Assembly: GCA_918026815.1 (NCBI GenBank)
Contig: CAKJVC010000207.1
Location: forward strand, 1 to 64,000
Length of the DNA stretch: 64,000 nt
Source of the DNA: Chalara sp. BL73
Lineage: Eukaryota > Ascomycota > Leotiomycetes > Helotiales
Direction: 5' to 3'
Below the pieces are notes generated by a model. It worked only from the letters and a program-made list of their open reading frames with translations, made no database searches and was not told the DNA's origin. This document shows positions 1 to 45,782 of this stretch, piece after piece. The translations under genes and the position numbers were made by a program. Positions within the stretch are counted from its first letter, which is position 1, and every line of letters starts with the position of its first letter.

Positions 1-127
1 CCCCTAACCCTAACCCTAACCCTAACCCTAACCCTAACCCTAACCCTAACCCTAACCCTAACCCTAACCCTAACCCTAACCCTAACCCTAACCCTAACCC
101 TAACCCTAACCCTAACCCTAACCCTAA
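1..127. repeat. Telomere repeat array (CCCTAA)21
   Basis: Twenty-one perfect CCCTAA units run from base 2 to 127 with one extra C in front. The C-rich strand reads 5' to 3' from base 1, so base 1 is the physical left end of a chromosome. The array stops abruptly and is followed directly by AT-rich DNA, with no degenerate telomere-like units. Confidence 0.98.
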
Positions 128-1439
128 CACTATTGTTGCAAAAATTTGTTTTTCGCGTATTGTTGCTTATTTAATTATTTTCGATATTATGCGATTTATT
201 CGATTGTACTTTCGCAAAATTTTTACTTTAAATTTACAATTCTATTTTTTTTAAAATAACTCTAAAAATTACTGCGTAGTTTATATAATTATTTTTTTAC
301 CGGAAATAAAGTTTTTTTTAGTGCGACGCGTTGTAATTCGCTTTGCGATTGCTAGTGTTAATGTCGCCGCATACTTACTTTTTTACTTTTACGCTACATA
401 TTTCAACAACTGCTATTTTAAACTTTTTAAATAAAATTTTTTTAAATGCTTTATTATATGCTTAATTACCGGAAATTTTAATACACGACTTTATGTTAAA
501 CAATACAACTAATTTCACTTTTTATAAATGTTTTTGCCGACTGCGTTTAATTATAATAATTATGTAATCTAAACTACGTTTTTAACTGCGCAACATTTCA
601 ACTGTTTAAAATAACATTTACTACTAATTAAAATGTTTTAGAAATTTAAAAATAATGTTTTTAATATTTGTTTTACTACTTTTAATTTTTTTTTTTTTCC
701 GATGAATTTATTCTATTAAAACTATTTTATTAACGCTTGCGCTTGCTTTTTGCTATAACTTTACTTTTTTTGAACTTGTTCGTTATGTGTAACTATTTTT
801 AAACTTGATAATTATAACTTGGACTTTTCCGGGTTTGCTTTTGGCGCATCGTACTGCTAGCTTCGAGTTACGCGTAGTAAATATGCTTTGTAATAGTTTA
901 GACTTACTTTGCTTTTTTTTCGGCTTACTTTTTTCTTTTTTCTTTTTTTTTATTAACTTTAATTCGAACATACTTTTGACCCGAGCAACTATAATAAATA
1001 AAATAATCATTAAAAACTCTTTTTTTTTTTTTTTTTTTTTTTTTTGCCGGGCGGCGCGCTTAATACGAACGAATTCGAGTTATATTTTAATTTTTTTTTT
1101 CAAATAAAAAATTCGTGAATAACATATTTACCGGAAATATATTTTTTACACTGTTATTTGCATTTCTTTTTTTGTTAAGCGCTTAATACGGACGAGTTAT
1201 AAAGTTAAAAAAAGAATAAATAAAAAATTATACTAACAAAGTCAAAAAAAAAGAAAAAAGCAAAGAATTAAGCTTGACAAAAGTTTAAGTAAAGTATAAT
1301 TAAAAAGAAAAGTAATAAAATAAGCATTTTTTTATAAAGCCAAGCTAATAAATAGTTTTATTATATATTACATTTTATTTTATTTTATTTAGAAGTAAAA
1401 TATATACGTAAAATTATATATCAAAAGTTTTAATATAAT
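128..1439. other. AT-rich subtelomeric DNA, no gene
   Basis: Very AT-rich and full of TpA steps and T tracts (for example 1019-1045). Short reading frames here are low-complexity Phe/Lys/Asn strings and look like chance. The composition fits RIP-mutated repeat DNA between the telomere and the helicase relic. No recognisable coding signal was seen. Confidence 0.7.
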
Positions 1440-14201: not shown

Positions 14202-17200
14202 CTAGCTTTCTGGCTGCTTATTGGTTTCTGTAAGGAATGTTGATACTAGCGCATCGGTCTGCACCGGAGCAGCAGAGTCATGTACTGACAGGCCGATCAT
14301 GACTTGGGCCCTATCCTGAATCATAATGTTCTCGATGCGTACCTGGATAAGCGAAAGAATGGTTTTATATATTTCTTTGGGCAGCTTCAAATCGACACTG
14401 TCCGCCGGGACGCTGATAAGAGCTTTCGCATTATCTTCGATATGGATGTTCTTAAATTTGTCACCAGCAAATACAAGCTGGCTTTTATCAATTGCGAGGA
14501 TGTTTCCCGCTTCAATGGCTGCTTGGTTCGGATATTGCTCACTTGGACTGCTTTGGGGCCAATCTGGGTGACCAGTACTCTGAAGGCTTGTGTTTGGCGT
14601 CCTTCGCATATACTGACCTTGTGCTGGTAGGTTAAAAAGACCTCGTTCAAACTCTTCTGCAGTCAAAGGGGGCTGATCAGGAAGAGACTGATAGTAGGCT
14701 TGGGTCCACTCTCTGATGTACTGCTGCAGCACCTCTAGTACTCCTGGTAGACAATCCCAACGTGCCTTGTCACATACAGAAGCCCCTTGTTTGTTTCTAG
14801 CCCAAGGATCAGCTCCATGACTGAGAAACAGCTCGACTATGTCTGCCTTTTGAGTAGCTTGAAGATCCCGTCCCGAAGCGGCGTAGACGCCTTCGTTAGG
14901 TTGCCAAAGCCCTTCAACCTCAACAATTACACCGATATATGCGTTTGCTCGGTCTTGGATTAAGCAATTGTCAATGAACATCTTCTCCGGCTTCGGACTC
15001 ACGACGGCCCACATCAACGGACTCCAGCCATCAAGGTCGAAGTCGTCAACCACTGCTCCTCGTACGATTAATTCCTTGCATACATTGAAAAAGCCTCTTT
15101 CAGCTGCAAAAGATAAGACAGATCTATTGCGAGGCCCCCGTTCGTGCACAGTCTCGTCGGTGATCAGTTGACACAGCCATTGGTCGTCCGTGAAGACGTT
15201 CTCCGCCTTTGTAGATACATGACGCCACTCAGATTCCTTAATCTGTATCACGAAGCCCATGAAACCCTGAGAGCGGTCCTCCAGCATTACGTCCGAGAGT
15301 GTCACTATGTGACTAGAGCCTAACAATACTTCCAAAAGGGCTCTAGCCGGAGGAGGCACCCCTTTTCGGAGTAGCATCGTGACAATGCTTCCTAATTGTT
15401 TTTTAGCGGCTAAAATGATCAGTTGGGTGCCCATCTCCTGCAAGTCGGCTTCTGAATGTAAATTAATAAGCAGTTCCAGGCATTGAAGGTCTGTCCGAAG
15501 TCGTATTCCGTCCATCCACATTTTTTTGGCCTGTGCAAATCGGGGCGTAAGGCGAAAGCTCGTGCTAGTAAGGAACTGGCCTGAATCTGTCATAAGAACG
15601 TCGTTGATAGAGTTCTCCATCCATCCAAAGTCATCGCCAAGTGCCCAACGCAGCGTCGTATGCCCAAGCTTGTCTTGACGCGTCAGCAATGCCCCATTGA
15701 AAACAACCTTCTCGATCATCATTGGATTCCGGCTTAGTATGCTCCAGTGAAGAGCAGTAAATCCTTCTTCGTCTTCTTCCTCGATCGAAACGCCGTCTTT
15801 AAGTACCATTTCTAGCAACTTTTGAAGACCCATTGCTGTTACCAGGTGGATTGTGGAAACTGGGCGCCATTTGAAGTTCTCGCGGTCATCCTCAGAAATA
15901 AAATACCATAGATACAGCATTCCTATAATGGTTAGTCGAGATGTCGAGCCGAAAATTCGATTGAATTCATCAAGTAGATCTTGATTAGATGCTTGCTGAG
16001 CGTGAGTTGAGAAATTTTCGATGGTGTAAGATGTGAGAGGGGATTTTCTCATGATTTCTTGGAGTATATCTGCTTCGAATTGCTGTTGACCATCCATATT
16101 GCCGGCGGCACTAATATGATGAGTCAAAATAGTGTCAAGATAGTGGAGGCATGTGAAGGCAATACTCTGGTGCGGATTTTCGAAACCCAGAGAGTCGAGG
16201 TGATCCAGGACGAATGCATGTACCGTTGGGTGGTTGAAACTGACGTTGTTACTTGCCTTGCCTACCTGAACTAATCCCCTACAAGATGCAACAATTCGTT
16301 TCTTTGGCAACAGCGAGTGGGTGCCTCCTGCGATTTCGATACCTCTAGACAATGCCAACACGTGTTGAATGAGCTGAATCGATAAGTTGTGAGGTGAGCA
16401 TGCTAGCCATAGGAGGACTTCTCGAGCGAGTGCCTTTTTTGAATCATCTTTTAGAATTTGATCCCATAAGCCTTTGTAGATGTGATGAATATTTGGTGAC
16501 AAATTCTGAATAAAGCGTTCCAGGTCATCGAGAGTTCCGGGGCTGGTCCCATCTATCAGTTCAAGATGGTGTTGTGCCCGAAGAAATCCCCAAAGACCCT
16601 CGGCCTTTTCAAACAAGGCATCCAAAAGCTTCTCCTTGACCTGAGGCTTTTCTTCTTCGCTCAAGTCTTCAATCAAGTCACATATAGATACTCTGTCCTC
16701 CATCTGGGTGCTGATAAACTCCCTCAAGTCACTGGCTCGTGTCTTAATCTCACAGAGACTAGCTTTGGATAACGGGCCAAGCTGTGGACATTCCATATAG
16801 GATGTGAACAAGGAACGAACGCCTCTGCGCCTTTCTCCGAACTTGCACACTTTCTTCACGAAATCAACTTGCGTTTGATTATCCATTTCATCAAGTCCGT
16901 CAACTACAATATAGACATTTCCAAACTCTGAAACTTCAGCCAGTAAGATATTTAAAAGCTCACGACCAGGGGGTTGCGAGCCATTAGAAACCTGACATCG
17001 GAGGTAGAGTTCTTTGAGCGCAGACGAGCTCTGACGACGATACTGAATCACCTGTGCCAATAATGCTGCAAAGCGGAGGTCGCAAGAGTGAGCAGGTTTC
17101 GGCTGTACGTAGTGGTAGATCACTATACTCGGCTGCTGTTGTTCACGAAGGATCTTTTGGAGATAATTGACAACGACGCTCCTTAACGGTTGTCAGAGGA

Positions 17201-18648
17201 CCCACAGATGTCATGGGGATAGAAAAAAGCACTTGCATCAGCGATGTCTTCCCACAACCGCCTACAACCGTCAGGAATGAAACCACAGTTAGAGCTCACA
17301 ACTTACGTATACCATGGCAGTAGAGCAACCCAGCTTCTGATGTGAGCCACTTGGTGAACTCGTCTGTATGAAGAAACCACTCGCCAGCACCATCCTGCAT
17401 TTGCAGTAAGAGATCATTCTGGAAAGGGACGAAATCAAGATCCTCATTCTTAGATGTGAGCCATGAAAATATATCTAGCCAGCTTGGCTCACGCACAGGC
17501 ACTACATACATGGATCAGTGGTTAACTTCAGACCTGGAAAGGTCTCACAGAACCTCACCTCTATCCTCTGTAATATATTGAACATTCTCAGGAATGCCCA
17601 TCTGCAGTTGACCAAGGAAAGCCTTGGCACATGATGCGGCAGTCATCGCAGCCCATTCTTGCCACTGCTTATTTTTGTGGCTGTCCGCATAGTCGCAGCC
17701 TGCTTTGATGACAACTGTAGGGAACGTGCTCCACACCCCAGCTCCCTCCATTTCAAAAGCTATCACACCATGTTCTTCAGTAACTCTGTCCCGCATAGCG
17801 CCGTTCTTCATCACCTTGTTGCCGGAAGCCACTTTTCCATGATAGATTCGTGGAAAGAATGAAGGTTCAGATTTCAATGATTCACCTGCCTCGGCATCAA
17901 CAATCTCTCGTACAGGCCTTCCAAGAATGAGTTCTTCTTTGGAACAACCAATTTTATCGCATAGAGAGTCGAAAGCCTCTTGACAATAATCCTTCGCAGC
18001 ACAGTCTTTGCACACGCGATTGCGATGCTCGTGGATATAATCCGCCTCATACAAAAAATCTGTCGCACGACCAGGATACCCGAAAGCCCGGGATTTGATG
18101 GATTTGTGCTCCATCAACGAGCATAAATTGACATTAACTTGGTGGCAAAAGAATTCCCAAGGTTCAGGTGTGAGAAGTTGCTTAAATCCCCGGAGCATAG
18201 CGTCGGAAGCCTTTTGCAACATGTTTTTGCTCTTGAAGCCGGAAGGATACTCCTTGCCTCTAGTATATTGGATGACCTCGCTGCTTATGACTACATCCCC
18301 CAATACGGCCTGATCCTTTCCAATTTTGGGAATAATACCACATATGCCCACCACAAAGCAAAGCTTAATGTTTTGGAAACTGCGCTGCATATCCTTGGCC
18401 ACCTCTTTAGCCTCCACGTCTCCCATGTCGGCTAGATGGGCAAGAACGATATGGTAGTCGCAAATTGTTCCAAAACTGTAACTATTCCCATCACCTTTAG
18501 CCGTCTTGGGCCACGCCTTTTTGTCCAGGAAGAAGTGATCGAAGGACGATTGAACAGCGACAGCTTCGTGGGCTAATGCACAGACGATGCCGATCGTGTA
18601 CTCGTCGGGGTCTAGGAGGGGTTTTGGCTTAGGGGTTTTCGCAGACAT
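14202..18648 (-). CDS. PNP_UDP-NACHT-ankyrin NOD-like receptor (fungal NLR)
   Basis: Exons: 18648-17559, 17501-17307, 17261 to about 17233, and about 17170-14202; introns of 57 and 45 bp with GTGAGG and GTAAGT donors. Residues 1-363 are a purine nucleoside phosphorylase-like domain (IGIVCALAHEAVAV; VVGICGIIPK; FEMEGAG near 298-304; CDYADSHKNKQWQEWAA). Then DGAGEWFLHTDEFTKWL, the linker usual before NACHT, Walker A GIRGCGKTS and Walker B VYIVVDGLDEMD. The C-terminal half has ankyrin repeats (GFTALHWSILS; GWSPLMWAVV; VELFLSHGADPWARN). About 1,410 residues. Between Walker A and the rest of NACHT the frame slips one base: a 51-bp intron with a good CTGAC branch is visible, but canonical ends do not restore the frame, so it is a non-canonical splice, a sequence error or a disabling mutation. 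Likely role: non-self recognition or cell death signalling. Confidence 0.82.
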
Positions 18649-18847
18649 TTTGTGATACCAAGTATAGTGTATAGAGAGTTTGGCAATTCTGGTGATAGAT
18701 ATATCCTTAGCAATTGGATATATCTATCTTTGGACATCCCTCAGCCTTGCGATTTCGACGATGCCCAATCGAGGACACCCACGTTGCTTACCCATTGTCC
18801 CGTGGGAAGGCTGCATTGTACTAGGGGACTAATGGAGTTATTATTTA

Positions 18848-19719
18848 CGGCAAATTTCTGAAATACCATCGAAAAGTCGATAAATATCTCAAATACCACT
18901 ACCGAATTTGGAGGCTCTCGGGGCATACTACTGTTTCGAATCAGTGGTATGTTAAATATCTGCCGACAAAATGATGGTATTTCAGAAAGATTAGTAGTTA
19001 CACGTAGTTTTTCTGAAATCAGCAAATATCTTATATACTATAGTTATAGTGCGTTAAGATTATTGCTGTAGCAATACAATTGCTTAAATACGTTGTAGCA
19101 ATTACGTTGTAGCAATTACGCTGTAACAACTACGCTGTAGCAACTACGCTGTAGCAACTACAATACACGTTGTAGTGATATACACTGCAACAATTACAAT
19201 TACAATTACAAATTAAATATATTATCTATTAATTTATATCGATATGTTATAACTATGCTGCTACTTTACGTATTGTTACAGTGTGTATTGTAATTGATAC
19301 AGCGTGTACTATAATTGCTACAGCGTAGTTGCTATAGCGTGTATTGTAATTAATACAGCGTGTACTGTAGTTGCTACAGCGTAGTTGATACAGCGTAATA
19401 GCTACAGCGCAACCACCACAACGTACTAAACTCGTAATTGTAATTGCAAGTATATTATTGTAACGCGTATTGCTACAGCGTAATTGTAATTGTGTTGCTA
19501 TAGCGTATATTGTAATTGTTACAATGTATTTATAACGTGCTTACAGCGTGTTAGAAGCTTTCTCAAATACCATCAAAAATTTAAAAGTGCTGGAGGCTTT
19601 CTCAGATGCCATCAATTATTCTGAAATACTATTATTTGTGGTATATAGGAAAGCCTCCAAATTCGGTGTGGTATTTCAAATATTTATCGACTTTTTGGTG
19701 GTATCCGATAAATTTGCCG
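18848..19719. mobile_element. MULE-like foldback element, copy 1 (872 bp)
   Basis: Terminal inverted repeats start CGGCAAATTT at 18848 and end AAATTTGCCG at 19719, about 70 bp each and imperfect (both contain AGTCGATAAATAT and CCGAATTTGGAGGCT). A perfect 9-bp target duplication TATTATTTA lies at 18839-18847 and 19720-19728. The interior is a degenerate minisatellite of GTAGCAACTACG-type units on the left and the same units inverted on the right. No transposase. Nine-bp duplications and long inverted repeats point to Mutator-like non-autonomous elements. It lies between the NLR gene and the methyltransferase gene. Confidence 0.85.
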
Positions 19720-19728
19720 TATTATTTA

Positions 19729-23710: not shown

Positions 23711-25212
23711 ACAAAACTCTGAGTCATTGCTGGGGCAAACGGGCCGTAATGATGAAATTATTAGAATGCAATTATCTTTCCATAATGGAACGAATTGTCT
23801 ATGCTCAATTACCAAAGACCTTTCGGGACGCCATAATTGCCAGCAAAAAGCTTGGTGTAGGGTATCTCTGGGCCGACCCACTTTGCATCATACAAGATAG
23901 CATAAGTGACTGGCAACGAGAAGCTTCCCTTATGCATCAGGTTTACACAACTGGCATCTGTAACATTTCAGCGACGGCCGCATTGGACAGCTCTGAGGGG
24001 CTCTTCTTCCCACGAGATCCAGCGACTCTCCGGCAGCTCTGTTTTCAGGCTTGCATGGATGGTGCGAAAGGTTACTTCAGTCCTTGCGATGAGGGCTTAT
24101 GGGAGAAATCCTCTACCAATGCTCCCCTGAATGGCAGAGCATGGGTGCGTCAGGAGCGGATACTTGCCAAACGGAATCTTCATTTCGCTCGCGGCCAGAT
24201 CTTTTTGGGAGTGCTGTGAGCTTTTGGCTTGTGAAACACTCCCTACTGGCTTTTCTGTTCAATGGGATAACATGTCATTATAGTAAGATATTTCGAGGGG
24301 TTTCGCCTCCCGCTTCGTTACAAGAGTCCCGAGAGACCTCACATTTCCTCCCAACGATGAAACAGTGAATTTGGCGTACCAGATATGGGAAAAGATCATT
24401 GGTCTCTTCTGCCGAGGTGATCTTACTTTTGAGACTGAGAAGCTGACTGCCATTGGAAACTTGGCCAAATTAATGAATGAGACGCTGCTCGACGTCTACC
24501 TTGCTGGCTTGTGGAAGAGGAGTCTTGTTGCCCAGCTTTTGTGGTACTGTGACGGCTCCACAGAGACTATAGAGCGTGGCCCATACATTGCACCTAGCTG
24601 GTCATGGGCGACAGTTAGAGGGAGAATTCCTAAATCATACTTGATGCCGAAAGAGGGATCTACTGCCTTAACTAAAATTATAACTGCGTACACCAGTTTA
24701 GCCTGTGGTAACAAATATGGACAGGTGACAGGAGGCTGTATCACCACACGAGGGAAGCTTGCATGGCTGAAGCTGCATAAGCGACCAAGAGTGCTTGCCA
24801 GCCTCGAAGATCCTGCTGAGGTCGTAGAAGGGGCTATTCCTTCATTGGGTGCGAACAGACTAGTAGGCGCGAGTAGAAGTCACCCTTTTGGTCAACCCCT
24901 ACAGTTTCGTTAGGATGACAAATACTGCCCTCCACACGAGTGTCTTACCTCTTACCAATCTACTTATACAAATCCAATCATTCCGTACCCAGCTCGGAGC
25001 CCAATAGGCTTCAGAGCGTGATTTTGAAGTCTTCTGGTGGGAGACCAGCAAAACCTGTGGAACGCTGCGGTGTTTTTGAAGCCTTCAATCAAAATTACGT
25101 TCATAGAGTGATGGAAGGTTGCAAATATTTTAGCACGGTAGAGGGAGCAGACGGGTTCAAGTCTGACGATGACAGTAATGTTGGCAAAATCTATTGGATA
25201 TCAATTTTTTAG
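23711..25212 (+). pseudogene. Frameshifted HET-domain gene
   Basis: Starts at YKTLSHCWG (23711; the HET core entry) and runs through PKTFRDAI..SKKLGVGYLWA, CIIQDSISDWQREASLM, CNISATAALDSSEGLFF and AWVRQERILAKRNLHFARGQ. At about 24195 one extra T in a T run turns FWEC into a premature TGA; removing it in reading restores FWECCELLACET. Further stops occur near 24281-24286. The downstream half continues at 24365-24913 (LVAQLLWY; YIAPSWSWATV) and, after another frame change, 24940-25212 (ERCGVFEAF). At least three lesions, so it is dead. It is of the CWG/IIQDS HET subtype, different from the intact HET gene at 9930-12534. Confidence 0.8.
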
Positions 25213-32712: not shown

Positions 32713-32831
32713 GTGATGTTGTTGGAAGTGTGATGTTGTTGGAAGTGTGATGTTGTTGGAAGTGTGATGTTGTTGGAAGTGTGATGTTGTTGGAAGTGTG
32801 ATGTTGTTGGAAGTGTGATGTTGTTGGAAGT
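32713..32831 (+). repeat. 17-bp minisatellite, 7 perfect units
   Basis: Unit GTGATGTTGTTGGAAGT repeated seven times without mismatch, then a partial unit. It lies upstream of the minus-strand F-box gene. Perfect identity suggests recent expansion. Confidence 0.95.
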
Positions 32832-33676
32832 GTGGCGTACGTACTTGGAGGTGTGATTTTGTTGCGGAGCTGCGGTATGTTTATTTTAGGGATATGATTT
32901 AAAGGAGGTAAACAAACAAGGCTGAAATTAAGCGACTATTAAATATCCGGGGTGGCTGATAGCGCATTAAATTCAAGGCCGAAGAGACCAAACACATAAT
33001 GCTTACTCTCAGGCGTAATTAGAAAGCTTGCTTTCTTACTAAAGTCAGGACCCAGTGCGTGGGTGCACGGACTTAGCTTGCATATTAATATAAAGTTTAA
33101 GTTCGCAGTCGATTATCGCGTGTACAATATCGATGCGATAGTGTTCTTAGTGTAAGTGCATAGTATGTAAAGTCTATAGTGAAGTGGTTGAAAAACAGTG
33201 TAAAAGCAGCGTTCCGAGCATTTTATAATTATTGGCTGTACCTGGTGTGGAGACAAAGTGTCATACTAGGTGCCCGGCCGAGATTTTGTTGGAATATTCG
33301 GGCGTGTGCAAAGACTCCAGAGTTTAACTCTAGTTTTGCACACTGGTAATTGATTTTGTTTCTCCATAGTCGTGATTTGAAATAGTTATAGCCATACTGG
33401 TGGTTAATGAACATGGGACACGCATATAAATAAATGGCGAAGATAGTAAATGGTACTTTCAATTTCATTACAATACGAAGGGGTATGAGATACTCGATGA
33501 ATTGCATTTGCTCCAGTCAGACTGATAACAAATCCCTCAAGCAATACTCTCCCCCGACCCTACAGCCAAAAGGCTTCCCTATTCAGCAAAATTCGTAAGG
33601 ACTGACCTGTCACTCCTCGTCTCAACATGCATCCTCCCACCGAACCACATTCTTGCACCTAACCATCCCCTTCCAA
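32832..33676. other. Intergenic, no gene
   Basis: Lies between the minisatellite and the 3' end of the wall-protein gene. A 92-codon minus frame at 33229-33507 has no domain and no signal peptide. Nothing else supported. Confidence 0.4.
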
Positions 33677-44305: not shown

Positions 44306-44712
44306 TAATAAGTACGGCAAATTTCTCAGATACCACCACTGAATTTGGAGGCTTTCCCATATTCCACAAAGGATGGTATTTCAGAAAGCTATCAAATAAT
44401 TGATGGTACCTGAGAAAGCTTCCAACACTTTAAATTTTTGATAGTATTTGAGAAAGCTTCTAAAACTCCCTGTAAGCATGTTATAAGTACTCTGTAGCAA
44501 CTACAATACACGCTATAGCAATACAATTACAATTACGAGTTAACTACGTTGTAGCAATTACGCTGTAGCAACTACAACACATGCTGTAACGACTACGGTA
44601 CACCTTGTAGCAATTACAAGAAACGCCGTAGCGATGCATACTGCAACAATACAATTACAACTTAAATATATTACATATTAATTTATATCGATATATTGTA
44701 TACTGCTACTTT

Positions 44713-44945
44713 GTGTCACGGCCCTGGCCCTATTTCGCTTAAAGCCCTTTAGGGTTCGGCCCCTGGCACCACAGGGCCTCGCTTACACTGGCCCCTAGCC
44801 AGCTTCCTGTATATAAAGCATTGCTTTTTCTCTTTTTCTATTTGTAGCTTGTTCTCTTCGTTATAACAATTGATAGTTATTCACACTTTTGAGTCTCTTT
44901 CCTGAGATCTACGGATCCAGATCCCTGTTCGCCTTGAGTTGTTAC
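44713..44945 (+). mobile_element. Solo LTR nested in foldback element copy 2
   Basis: Begins GTGTCACGGCCCTGG and ends GAGTTGTTAC. A 5-bp duplication ACTTT lies at 44708-44712 and 44946-44950. It has a TATATAAAG box near 44809 and shares ATAACAATTGATAGTT with the inverted copy at 9474-9700. The 5-bp duplication fits LTR integration. It interrupts minisatellite sequence, so it arrived after the foldback element. Confidence 0.8.
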
Positions 44946-44963
44946 ACTTTATATATTGCTACA

Positions 44964-45415
44964 ACTTGTGTGTAACAGAGGGCAGCAGGAGAGATCGCAA
45001 TATAGCAAGTAAGGACACGATATTATGAGAACACGCGACTGGCAATGCAAAAGTAATAGTATTGTATTGATATGGAATGTAAGCTTATCAATTTATAAAA
45101 GACACAAGCTTGCCCTTTTTCAAAGAGTTCTAGCTTCTTTTTATACTTTTCACTTTTCGACTGTTCTGTAATTTTTACTTACAGAGTCACCAAGCTTTTA
45201 GCTTTAGTATCCCCGAAAATACTATAGCAGCTGAAGCCCGCAATAGTTTAGGCCATACGCCCTTGTAGTGGCTGCAAGCCTGTAGCTGCTGTAGCTGCAA
45301 GCTTATAGCTGGCAATAAGCTGGTTACGCTGTTTGCAGCCTAGAAAGTACCGCAGCTGAAAACCTTAATTTTTCCCATAAGGACTTTCATTCTACATCCG
45401 GGGCCTTGAACTGGT
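44964..45415 (+). mobile_element. Copia-type LTR-like repeat nested in foldback element copy 2
   Basis: Starts TGTAACAGAGGGCAGCAGGA and includes GTATCCCCGAAAATAC and TAGGCCATACGCC, in the same order as the inverted copy at 13020-13413. The distal part has GCTGTAGCTGCAAGC-like units. Foldback minisatellite resumes at about 45420 (GTTGCTACAGTG). The exact 3' end is uncertain. Confidence 0.6.
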
Positions 45416-45782
45416 TTCACGGATCCTGGTTGCTACAGTGTGTTGTAGTTGCTACAGCGTAATTGCTACAACGTATTTAACTCGTAATTGTAATTGTATT
45501 TGCATTGCTATAGCGTGTGTTGTAGTTGCTACCGCGTGCACTGTAAATGCTATAGCGTAAACTTTAACGCAACAAAACGACAGTATATAAATTATTTACC
45601 GATCTCGGAAAAACTACGTGTAACTACTAATTTTTCTGAAATACTATTATTTCGTCGACAGATATTTAACGTACTACTGTTTTGAAACAGTAGTATGCCC
45701 AGAAAGCTTCCAAATTCAGTAGTGGTATTTAAGACATTTACTGACTTTTCGATAGTATTTCAGAAATTTGCCGTAATAAGTA

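Follow-up and report, generated by a model that had tools for sequence, protein, structure and literature searches.

A probable non-autonomous Mutator-like foldback element with inverted minisatellite arms in the ascomycete Chalara sp. BL73

Introduction

In a stretch of 64,000 nucleotides from the helotialean fungus Chalara sp. BL73 (assembly GCA_918026815.1, contig CAKJVC010000207.1, positions 1 to 64,000 of the forward strand; hereafter the window), a short element carries inverted ends and an interior made of a minisatellite and its own inverse. Which type of transposase could have moved such an element, and how could an interior of this kind have arisen? Here, we compared the element with its relatives in the source assembly (58.66 Mb, 199 contigs). 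It is, with high confidence, a non-autonomous Mutator-like (MULE) foldback transposon of 872 bp, which was most likely mobilised by a MULE transposase and whose arms most likely grew from a short seed.

Results

Anatomy of the 872-bp element

The element covers window positions 18848–19719 and is flanked on both sides by TATTATTTA (18839–18847 and 19720–19728, plus strand), an exact 9-bp match that bears out the perfect target duplication claimed in the initial annotation. The inverted ends, for which a length of about 70 bp had been given, were recovered as outer inverted repeats of 72 nt with 86% pairing. The left end (18848–19019, plus strand) comprises the outer inverted repeat in its first 72 nt and a subterminal region, and is homologous to positions 1–172 of the autonomous element described below (85%). 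It is followed by the left inner part (19020–19066, plus strand), which on reading of the sequence opens with the end-like motif CAGCAAATATCTTATATACTATAG (19020–19043), resembling the ends of the second TIR subfamily; in the related copies C121 and C14 this motif is intact as CGGCAAATAT. Further inside lies the left minisatellite arm (19067–19200, plus strand), whose units of about 14 bp (TACGCTGTAGCAAC) run inward, then an AT-rich centre (19201–19271, unstranded), which resembles other family members by eye and with some sequence matches, and finally the right minisatellite arm (19272–19519, minus strand) with TACAGCGTAG-type units, the inverse of the left one; the borders of both arms and of the centre are approximate. 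The right subterminal region and the right inverted end (19519–19719, plus strand) are homologous to positions 2337–2396 and 2407–2580 of the autonomous element (84–85%), with a minisatellite seed at the inner edge of this segment.

Tandem Repeats Finder reported an array of TACGCTGTAGCAAC at 19089–19161 and inverse arrays at 19272–19396 and 19456–19519. We counted 18 unit matches (7 forward, 11 inverse), whereas none of 50 order-1 Markov shuffles contained more than one. All seven forward units lie left of the centre and all eleven inverse units right of it, with the centre picked to separate them, so that the right half proved to be the inverse of the left, as had been described. Folded as a single strand with DNA parameters, the element reached –188.1 kcal/mol, whereas 20 dinucleotide shuffles gave –91.8 ± 5.74 kcal/mol (z = –16.8). 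The element therefore has the feature of the foldback class, i.e., long inverted ends with inner tandem repeats and a strand that folds back on itself. No transposase is encoded within its 872 bp.

Surroundings and second copy in the window

The gene surroundings of the element extend over window positions 14202–18648 and 23749–24219. A minus-strand ORF that encodes a PNP_UDP_1 domain has the element 190 bp upstream and is followed by an ankyrin-repeat ORF in an NLR-like layout, and an ORF with a HET domain is found on the opposite side. Since a telomere-like (CCCTAA)n array is present at the contig end (window 2–132), the element is probably subtelomeric, at about 19 kb from this end. The HET and PNP_UDP_1 domains, this telomere repeat and the C-to-T decay described below point to a filamentous fungus. 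The window also contains a perfect 17-bp tandem repeat, GTGATGTTGTTGGAAGT, with 7.2 copies at 100% matches (32713–32834).

A second copy of 1459 bp (44315–45773, minus strand) has like ends and an inverted minisatellite and is flanked by identical 9-bp duplications, TAATAAGTA, at 44306–44314 and 45774–45782 (plus strand). Its extra length stems largely from an insert at about 44714–45435, composed of two dispersed repeats with many genome copies each: one of about 235 bp (44714–44946), which looks like a candidate solo LTR, and one of about 460 bp (44974–45435).

The 9-bp duplication in the family

End-pattern searches of the genome returned 113 sites for one form of the end (up to three mismatches) and 91 sites for the second form (up to two mismatches), and the reversed-pattern control gave zero end sites in the genome. 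The 59 loci analysed comprise both window copies and 57 retrieved stretches, including 20 + 20 picked from these searches; L044, L047 and L048 were replaced by longer stretches and left out. Pairing of all end-like sites 60–4000 bases apart yielded 624 pairs, among which exact flanking repeats of 9 bp were found 29 times, as opposed to 8 bp (8), 7 bp (1), 6 bp (1) and 5 bp (9), and repeats of 10, 11 or 12 bp not once. Thus, the genome search for like ends with 9-bp duplications, which had been suggested in the initial annotation, detected them at 34 of the 59 loci (29 exact, five with one mismatch), and the duplications of the family, mostly of 9 bp, lie in the range of 8–10 bp by which MULEs are recognised. 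L033 and L049 are 99.7% identical and share the same imperfect duplication, and therefore probably represent one insertion that was copied together with its surroundings.

The other 25 loci gave no end pair with a 9-bp duplication (L009, L019, L023, L026, L028, L030, L032, L035, L040, L045, L046, L053, L054, L056 and L058–L068). Among the reasons observed are lost or mutated ends, and some stretches have a single end site whose partner may be located outside. Copies lacking the duplication, which had been named as a finding that would speak against the proposed mechanism, consequently do exist (2 of 15 full-length copies, 25 of 59 loci), many of them with lost or mutated ends.

All 34 duplications contain at most one G or C, a composition shared by 19% of the 9-mers in the near flanks and 7% of those in the window. 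The observation that the duplications begin and end with TA is correct for both window copies and does not hold in general (3 of 34). Two members, at 301–382 in L039 and at 301–382 in L050, have 82 bp and contain little beyond their ends; the 9-bp duplication is perfect in one of them and has a single mismatch in the other. Such elements may represent the minimal mobile unit of the family.

An apparently autonomous MULE with similar ends

The genome contains at least 125 matches to the element (40 of 63 candidates scored). Each of its two ends is about 84–86% identical to 2.58-kb elements, i.e., similar rather than the same, and at a minimum of 16 places a left and a right end lie about 2.6 kb apart. 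These 16 places and four short relatives were retrieved for a full-length comparison. Both ends could be defined at 15 of the 16 places (the left end of L023 is damaged), and 13 of these 15 copies have exact 9-bp duplications, L009 and L019 being the exceptions. Fourteen of the 15 aligned full-length copies (L009–L022; C22, C129, C98, C49, C154, C5, C182, C109, C80, C62, C27, C21, C7 and C127) show zero substitutions in comparison to the majority over 2580 bases, with gap columns in L014 (one) and in L009 and L011 (69), and 12 of the 14 carry exact duplications. The 2580-bp element would therefore have moved very recently, and the pattern suggests that an apparently active transposon, mobile now or until very recently, has undergone a burst in the very recent past.

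Thirteen of the 14 substitution-free copies have an open frame of 662 codons, counted from stop to stop; in L014 this frame is split. Its translation has six Pfam matches in total, including MULE (PF10551, 64.8 bits), DBD_Tnp_Mut (MuDR DNA-binding), SWIM and Transposase_mut, each above the cut-off, and by eye a CCHC-like motif. A protein search with this transposase gave 41 relatives, the three best of which by E-value are 54–61% identical. The two hits of a PDB sequence search (E 0.17 and 0.96) are not meaningful, and scans of viral contigs and other genome contigs (3 and 12 pattern-matching stretches) confirmed no transposase relative. The Mutator-like source proposed in the initial annotation is accordingly supported by the presence, in the same genome, of a MULE that is apparently autonomous and has similar ends as well as 9-bp duplications, and by the prevalence of 9 bp in the family; the autonomous partner looked for is the 2580-bp element, with ends that are similar (about 85%).

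Three further full-length members (L041–L043) have a longest frame of at most 137 codons. The fifteenth aligned copy, L024 (C51:268865–271463), differs from the other copies at 476 positions; provided that the latter hold the older state, 449 of the 476 changes are C-to-T or G-to-A, with CA and CT sites hit about equally. This decay looks like repeat-induced point mutation (RIP), and the 14 burst copies are free of RIP-like changes of the L024 type. For the 872-bp element itself, which also has a high TA/AT index, RIP-like C-to-T decay was not adopted as the cause of its divergence, because the changes between the autonomous element and both of its ends are mixed.

Origin and distribution of the minisatellite arms

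At least four unit matches were found in 14 of the 34 elements with a duplication, and in 13 of the 34 the count also exceeded the best of 50 shuffles; in the full-length member L042 it only equals the shuffle best. In all 13 array-bearing elements, the mean position of the forward units is to the left of that of the inverse units, in L052 barely so and with a single forward unit. Among eight elements examined closer, six show a clean separation of the two arms, with L033 and L051 as exceptions. The array is absent from five short members (L034, L037, L038, L039 and L050), and the 2580-bp class has three unit matches, with shuffle maxima between 2 and 6, so that judged by unit count alone its seed is weak.

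At its inner edge, the right arm can be aligned with positions 2337–2396 of the autonomous element (85%), where the run TTACAGCG-TACCTACAACG-TGCTTACAGCG is located just inside the right end. Searched against the genome, the interior matched nine places, eight of which have at least one family end, with C95 as the exception; since simple repeats and highly frequent words are left out of this search, it may have passed over a free source of the array. Minisatellite units thus occur in elements with ends and duplications, and the edge of the right arm matches the autonomous right end. The minisatellite is therefore best read as an inward extension of the inverted repeats, in line with other foldback elements.

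Alignment scores of same-side arms among the 872-bp element, C121 and C14 range from 104 to 168, whereas the two arms of one element score only 48–68 with each other. From this difference, we infer that the inverted arrangement predates the divergence of these three copies and that their arms are not kept alike. Between more distant copies, arms on the same side and arms on opposite sides score about equally. Homogenisation of the arms is hence not supported in the three closest copies, and for more distant ones the test says little.

Empty sites

Flank joins of seven elements (14 prepared) were searched in the own genome. The target of L036 (a member of 1236 bp) has uninterrupted relatives, which are located within tandem arrays at C9 and C59; the alignment of the join spans the junction, e.g., over 126 columns at 79%, of which about 23 bases lie on the left side. 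The same search gave no empty site for either window copy, L010, L031, L055 or L057, and a 2601-base search around the first window copy returned no flank match (40 of 66 candidates scored). Long tandem arrays with related units are located at C9 (96-bp period) and C59 (L070, 205–2625, and L069), and it is the C9 array that was hit by L036.

Discussion

The 872-bp element can be described almost wholly as two composite inverted repeats that meet at the AT-rich centre. Each consists of an outer end common with the autonomous element, a subterminal region whose end-like motifs recur every 30 bp, and an inner arm made of about 14-bp units. Most likely, the MULE transposase of the 2580-bp relatives, or that of an extinct sister, recognised these ends and excised the element in trans, and insertion at an A/T-rich site via 9-bp staggered breaks would account for the duplication. 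For the inner arms, the most likely course is that a short seed, as found in the autonomous element's right subterminal region, was amplified in tandem, and that an inverted duplication, which would predate the closest of the present copies, placed the two arms face to face.

Although the 2580-bp relatives encode the enzyme most likely to move the element, a present-day link between the two is less certain: the ends are only about 85% alike, the nearest relative of the 872-bp element is 87.6% identical to it, so that it has no close copy, and among the end sites listed no autonomous copy carries its CGGCAAATTT end. The element may therefore represent an ancient remnant from a sister lineage. 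Since elements with similar ends code for a MULE transposase, its class is nevertheless known, though the family looks undescribed.

Other explanations mainly concern the interior. It might be a second family element nested in the first, with the motif about 173 bases in as its left end and its other end later lost. In fact, CGGCAAATAT stands at this site in C121 and C14, with a decayed form in the window copy. However, on reading the interior by eye neither a matching right end nor a second 9-bp duplication was noticed, end-like subterminal motifs at 30-bp steps are common in the family, and C129 and C69 by eye resemble the same core bounded directly by their own outer ends, which together make nesting rather unlikely. 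A further option is that the hairpin is the working part of the element and is transcribed to double-stranded RNA that silences the MULE family. In maize, Muk is an inverted duplicate that silences a MULE family. The very strong folding and the similarity of the ends to the autonomous copies would suit such a role; yet in the window copy, C121 and C14 an arm resembles its counterpart in the other elements more than the opposite arm of its own element, which argues that pairing is not kept up, and seven Rfam hits, all to miRNA families, remained below the gathering score. We therefore regard a silencing function as very improbable.

Alternatively, the interior could be a host minisatellite captured by a MULE in the manner of a Pack-MULE and thus be separate in origin from the ends. 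A long array is missing from the autonomous element, foreign sequence is frequent in MULEs (PMC5225508), and C95 (L032) contains the array with no family end within the 1501 bases examined. Against this, eight of the nine interior-matching places returned by the search outside simple repeats and very frequent words have at least one family end, and the inner edge runs collinear with the right end of the autonomous element, so that capture appears unlikely. As foldback shape alone does not reveal the superfamily (PMC3169594), a transposase of another type, e.g., that of the P-type element Galileo, could also be considered; with similar ends enclosing a MULE transposase, and MULE rather than P-type domains in the partner, this has hardly any probability left.

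The preferred reading, a MULE foldback element with arms grown from a seed, could be extended further. The inverted minisatellite might have been built from the one-sided autonomous seed by fold-back repair at MULE excision, and kept as an extra ladder of transposase-binding sites or as a source of double-stranded RNA restraining the family. This extension is speculative and, in our opinion, unlikely; if it were true, with a fold-back-repair origin and functional arms, it would be the first such foldback MULE system in a fungus, with an autonomous member still spreading.

How does the family relate to known systems? The initial annotation had considered the interior unusual. This is not supported: inner tandem repeats in inverted ends mark foldback elements, and several MULE families possess them, among them the animal elements Tm1 (PMC3169594) and Muta1 (PMC5225508), which have short tandem repeats. 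The statement that no named family fits is right insofar as a literature text search, covering the titles and abstract openings listed, found no fungal foldback MULE and no named fungal family; it is too wide in that a known kind of element, the foldback MULE, does fit. Thus, the family is apparently new for fungi, though ordinary in kind.

Tm1, a Mutator/Foldback family of root-knot nematodes, agrees with our family in its 9-bp duplications, in composite inverted ends whose short tandem units, mostly of 14 bp, vary in number, in the presence of coding and non-coding members and in a MULE transposase (PMC3169594). It differs in host, in a Phantom-type protein with a FLYWCH finger, in asymmetric 7-bp terminal motifs, in its low copy number and apparent inactivity, and by eye in an unrelated-looking unit sequence (PMC3169594). 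Its terminal motifs CGGTTAA and CCTACCC are absent from our element, which ends in CGGCAAAT on both sides, and FLYWCH is not among the six Pfam matches of the partner's 662-codon translation. Muta1 of the mosquito Aedes aegypti is likewise a MULE with identical copies (seven) and many non-autonomous relatives, and its long ends with 12-bp subterminal tandem repeats place it in the type 2 foldback class (PMC5225508). In contrast to our family, these repeats lie within the ends of the autonomous element, the transposase has 504 aa and two exons, duplications are of 8 or 9 bp, and movement was demonstrated in yeast (PMC5225508).

FARE of Arabidopsis (as cited in PMC4486113 and PMC3169594) and MuTAnT of Medicago also combine foldback ends with a MULE transposase or classification; they belong to plants, MuTAnT targets TA microsatellites, and the consulted text describes no inverted minisatellite core (PMC4486113). 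Among fungal MULEs, the available portions of the reports on the Hop group (PMC6446971) and VdMULE (PMC3441728) mention no foldback arrays. The table of Hop-group members includes CCHC and SWIM fingers, similar to the partner described here, and the same MULE survey notes minisatellites in Rehavkus and aphid Phantom elements (PMC6446971). Finally, Tetris of the fly Drosophila virilis is a non-autonomous foldback element with internal tandem repeats and 8–10-bp duplications, whose TIR-220 repeats may stem from its own end sequence; it differs in its units, which are apparently longer, and in that no transposase partner was found (PMC4079207). In Chalara sp. BL73, a foldback element occurs together with its likely enzyme source in a single genome, whereas for Tetris this link is missing. 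Moreover, this fungus contains both a short seed within an autonomous MULE and the expanded, inverted form of that seed, so that the growth of foldback ends is open to study.
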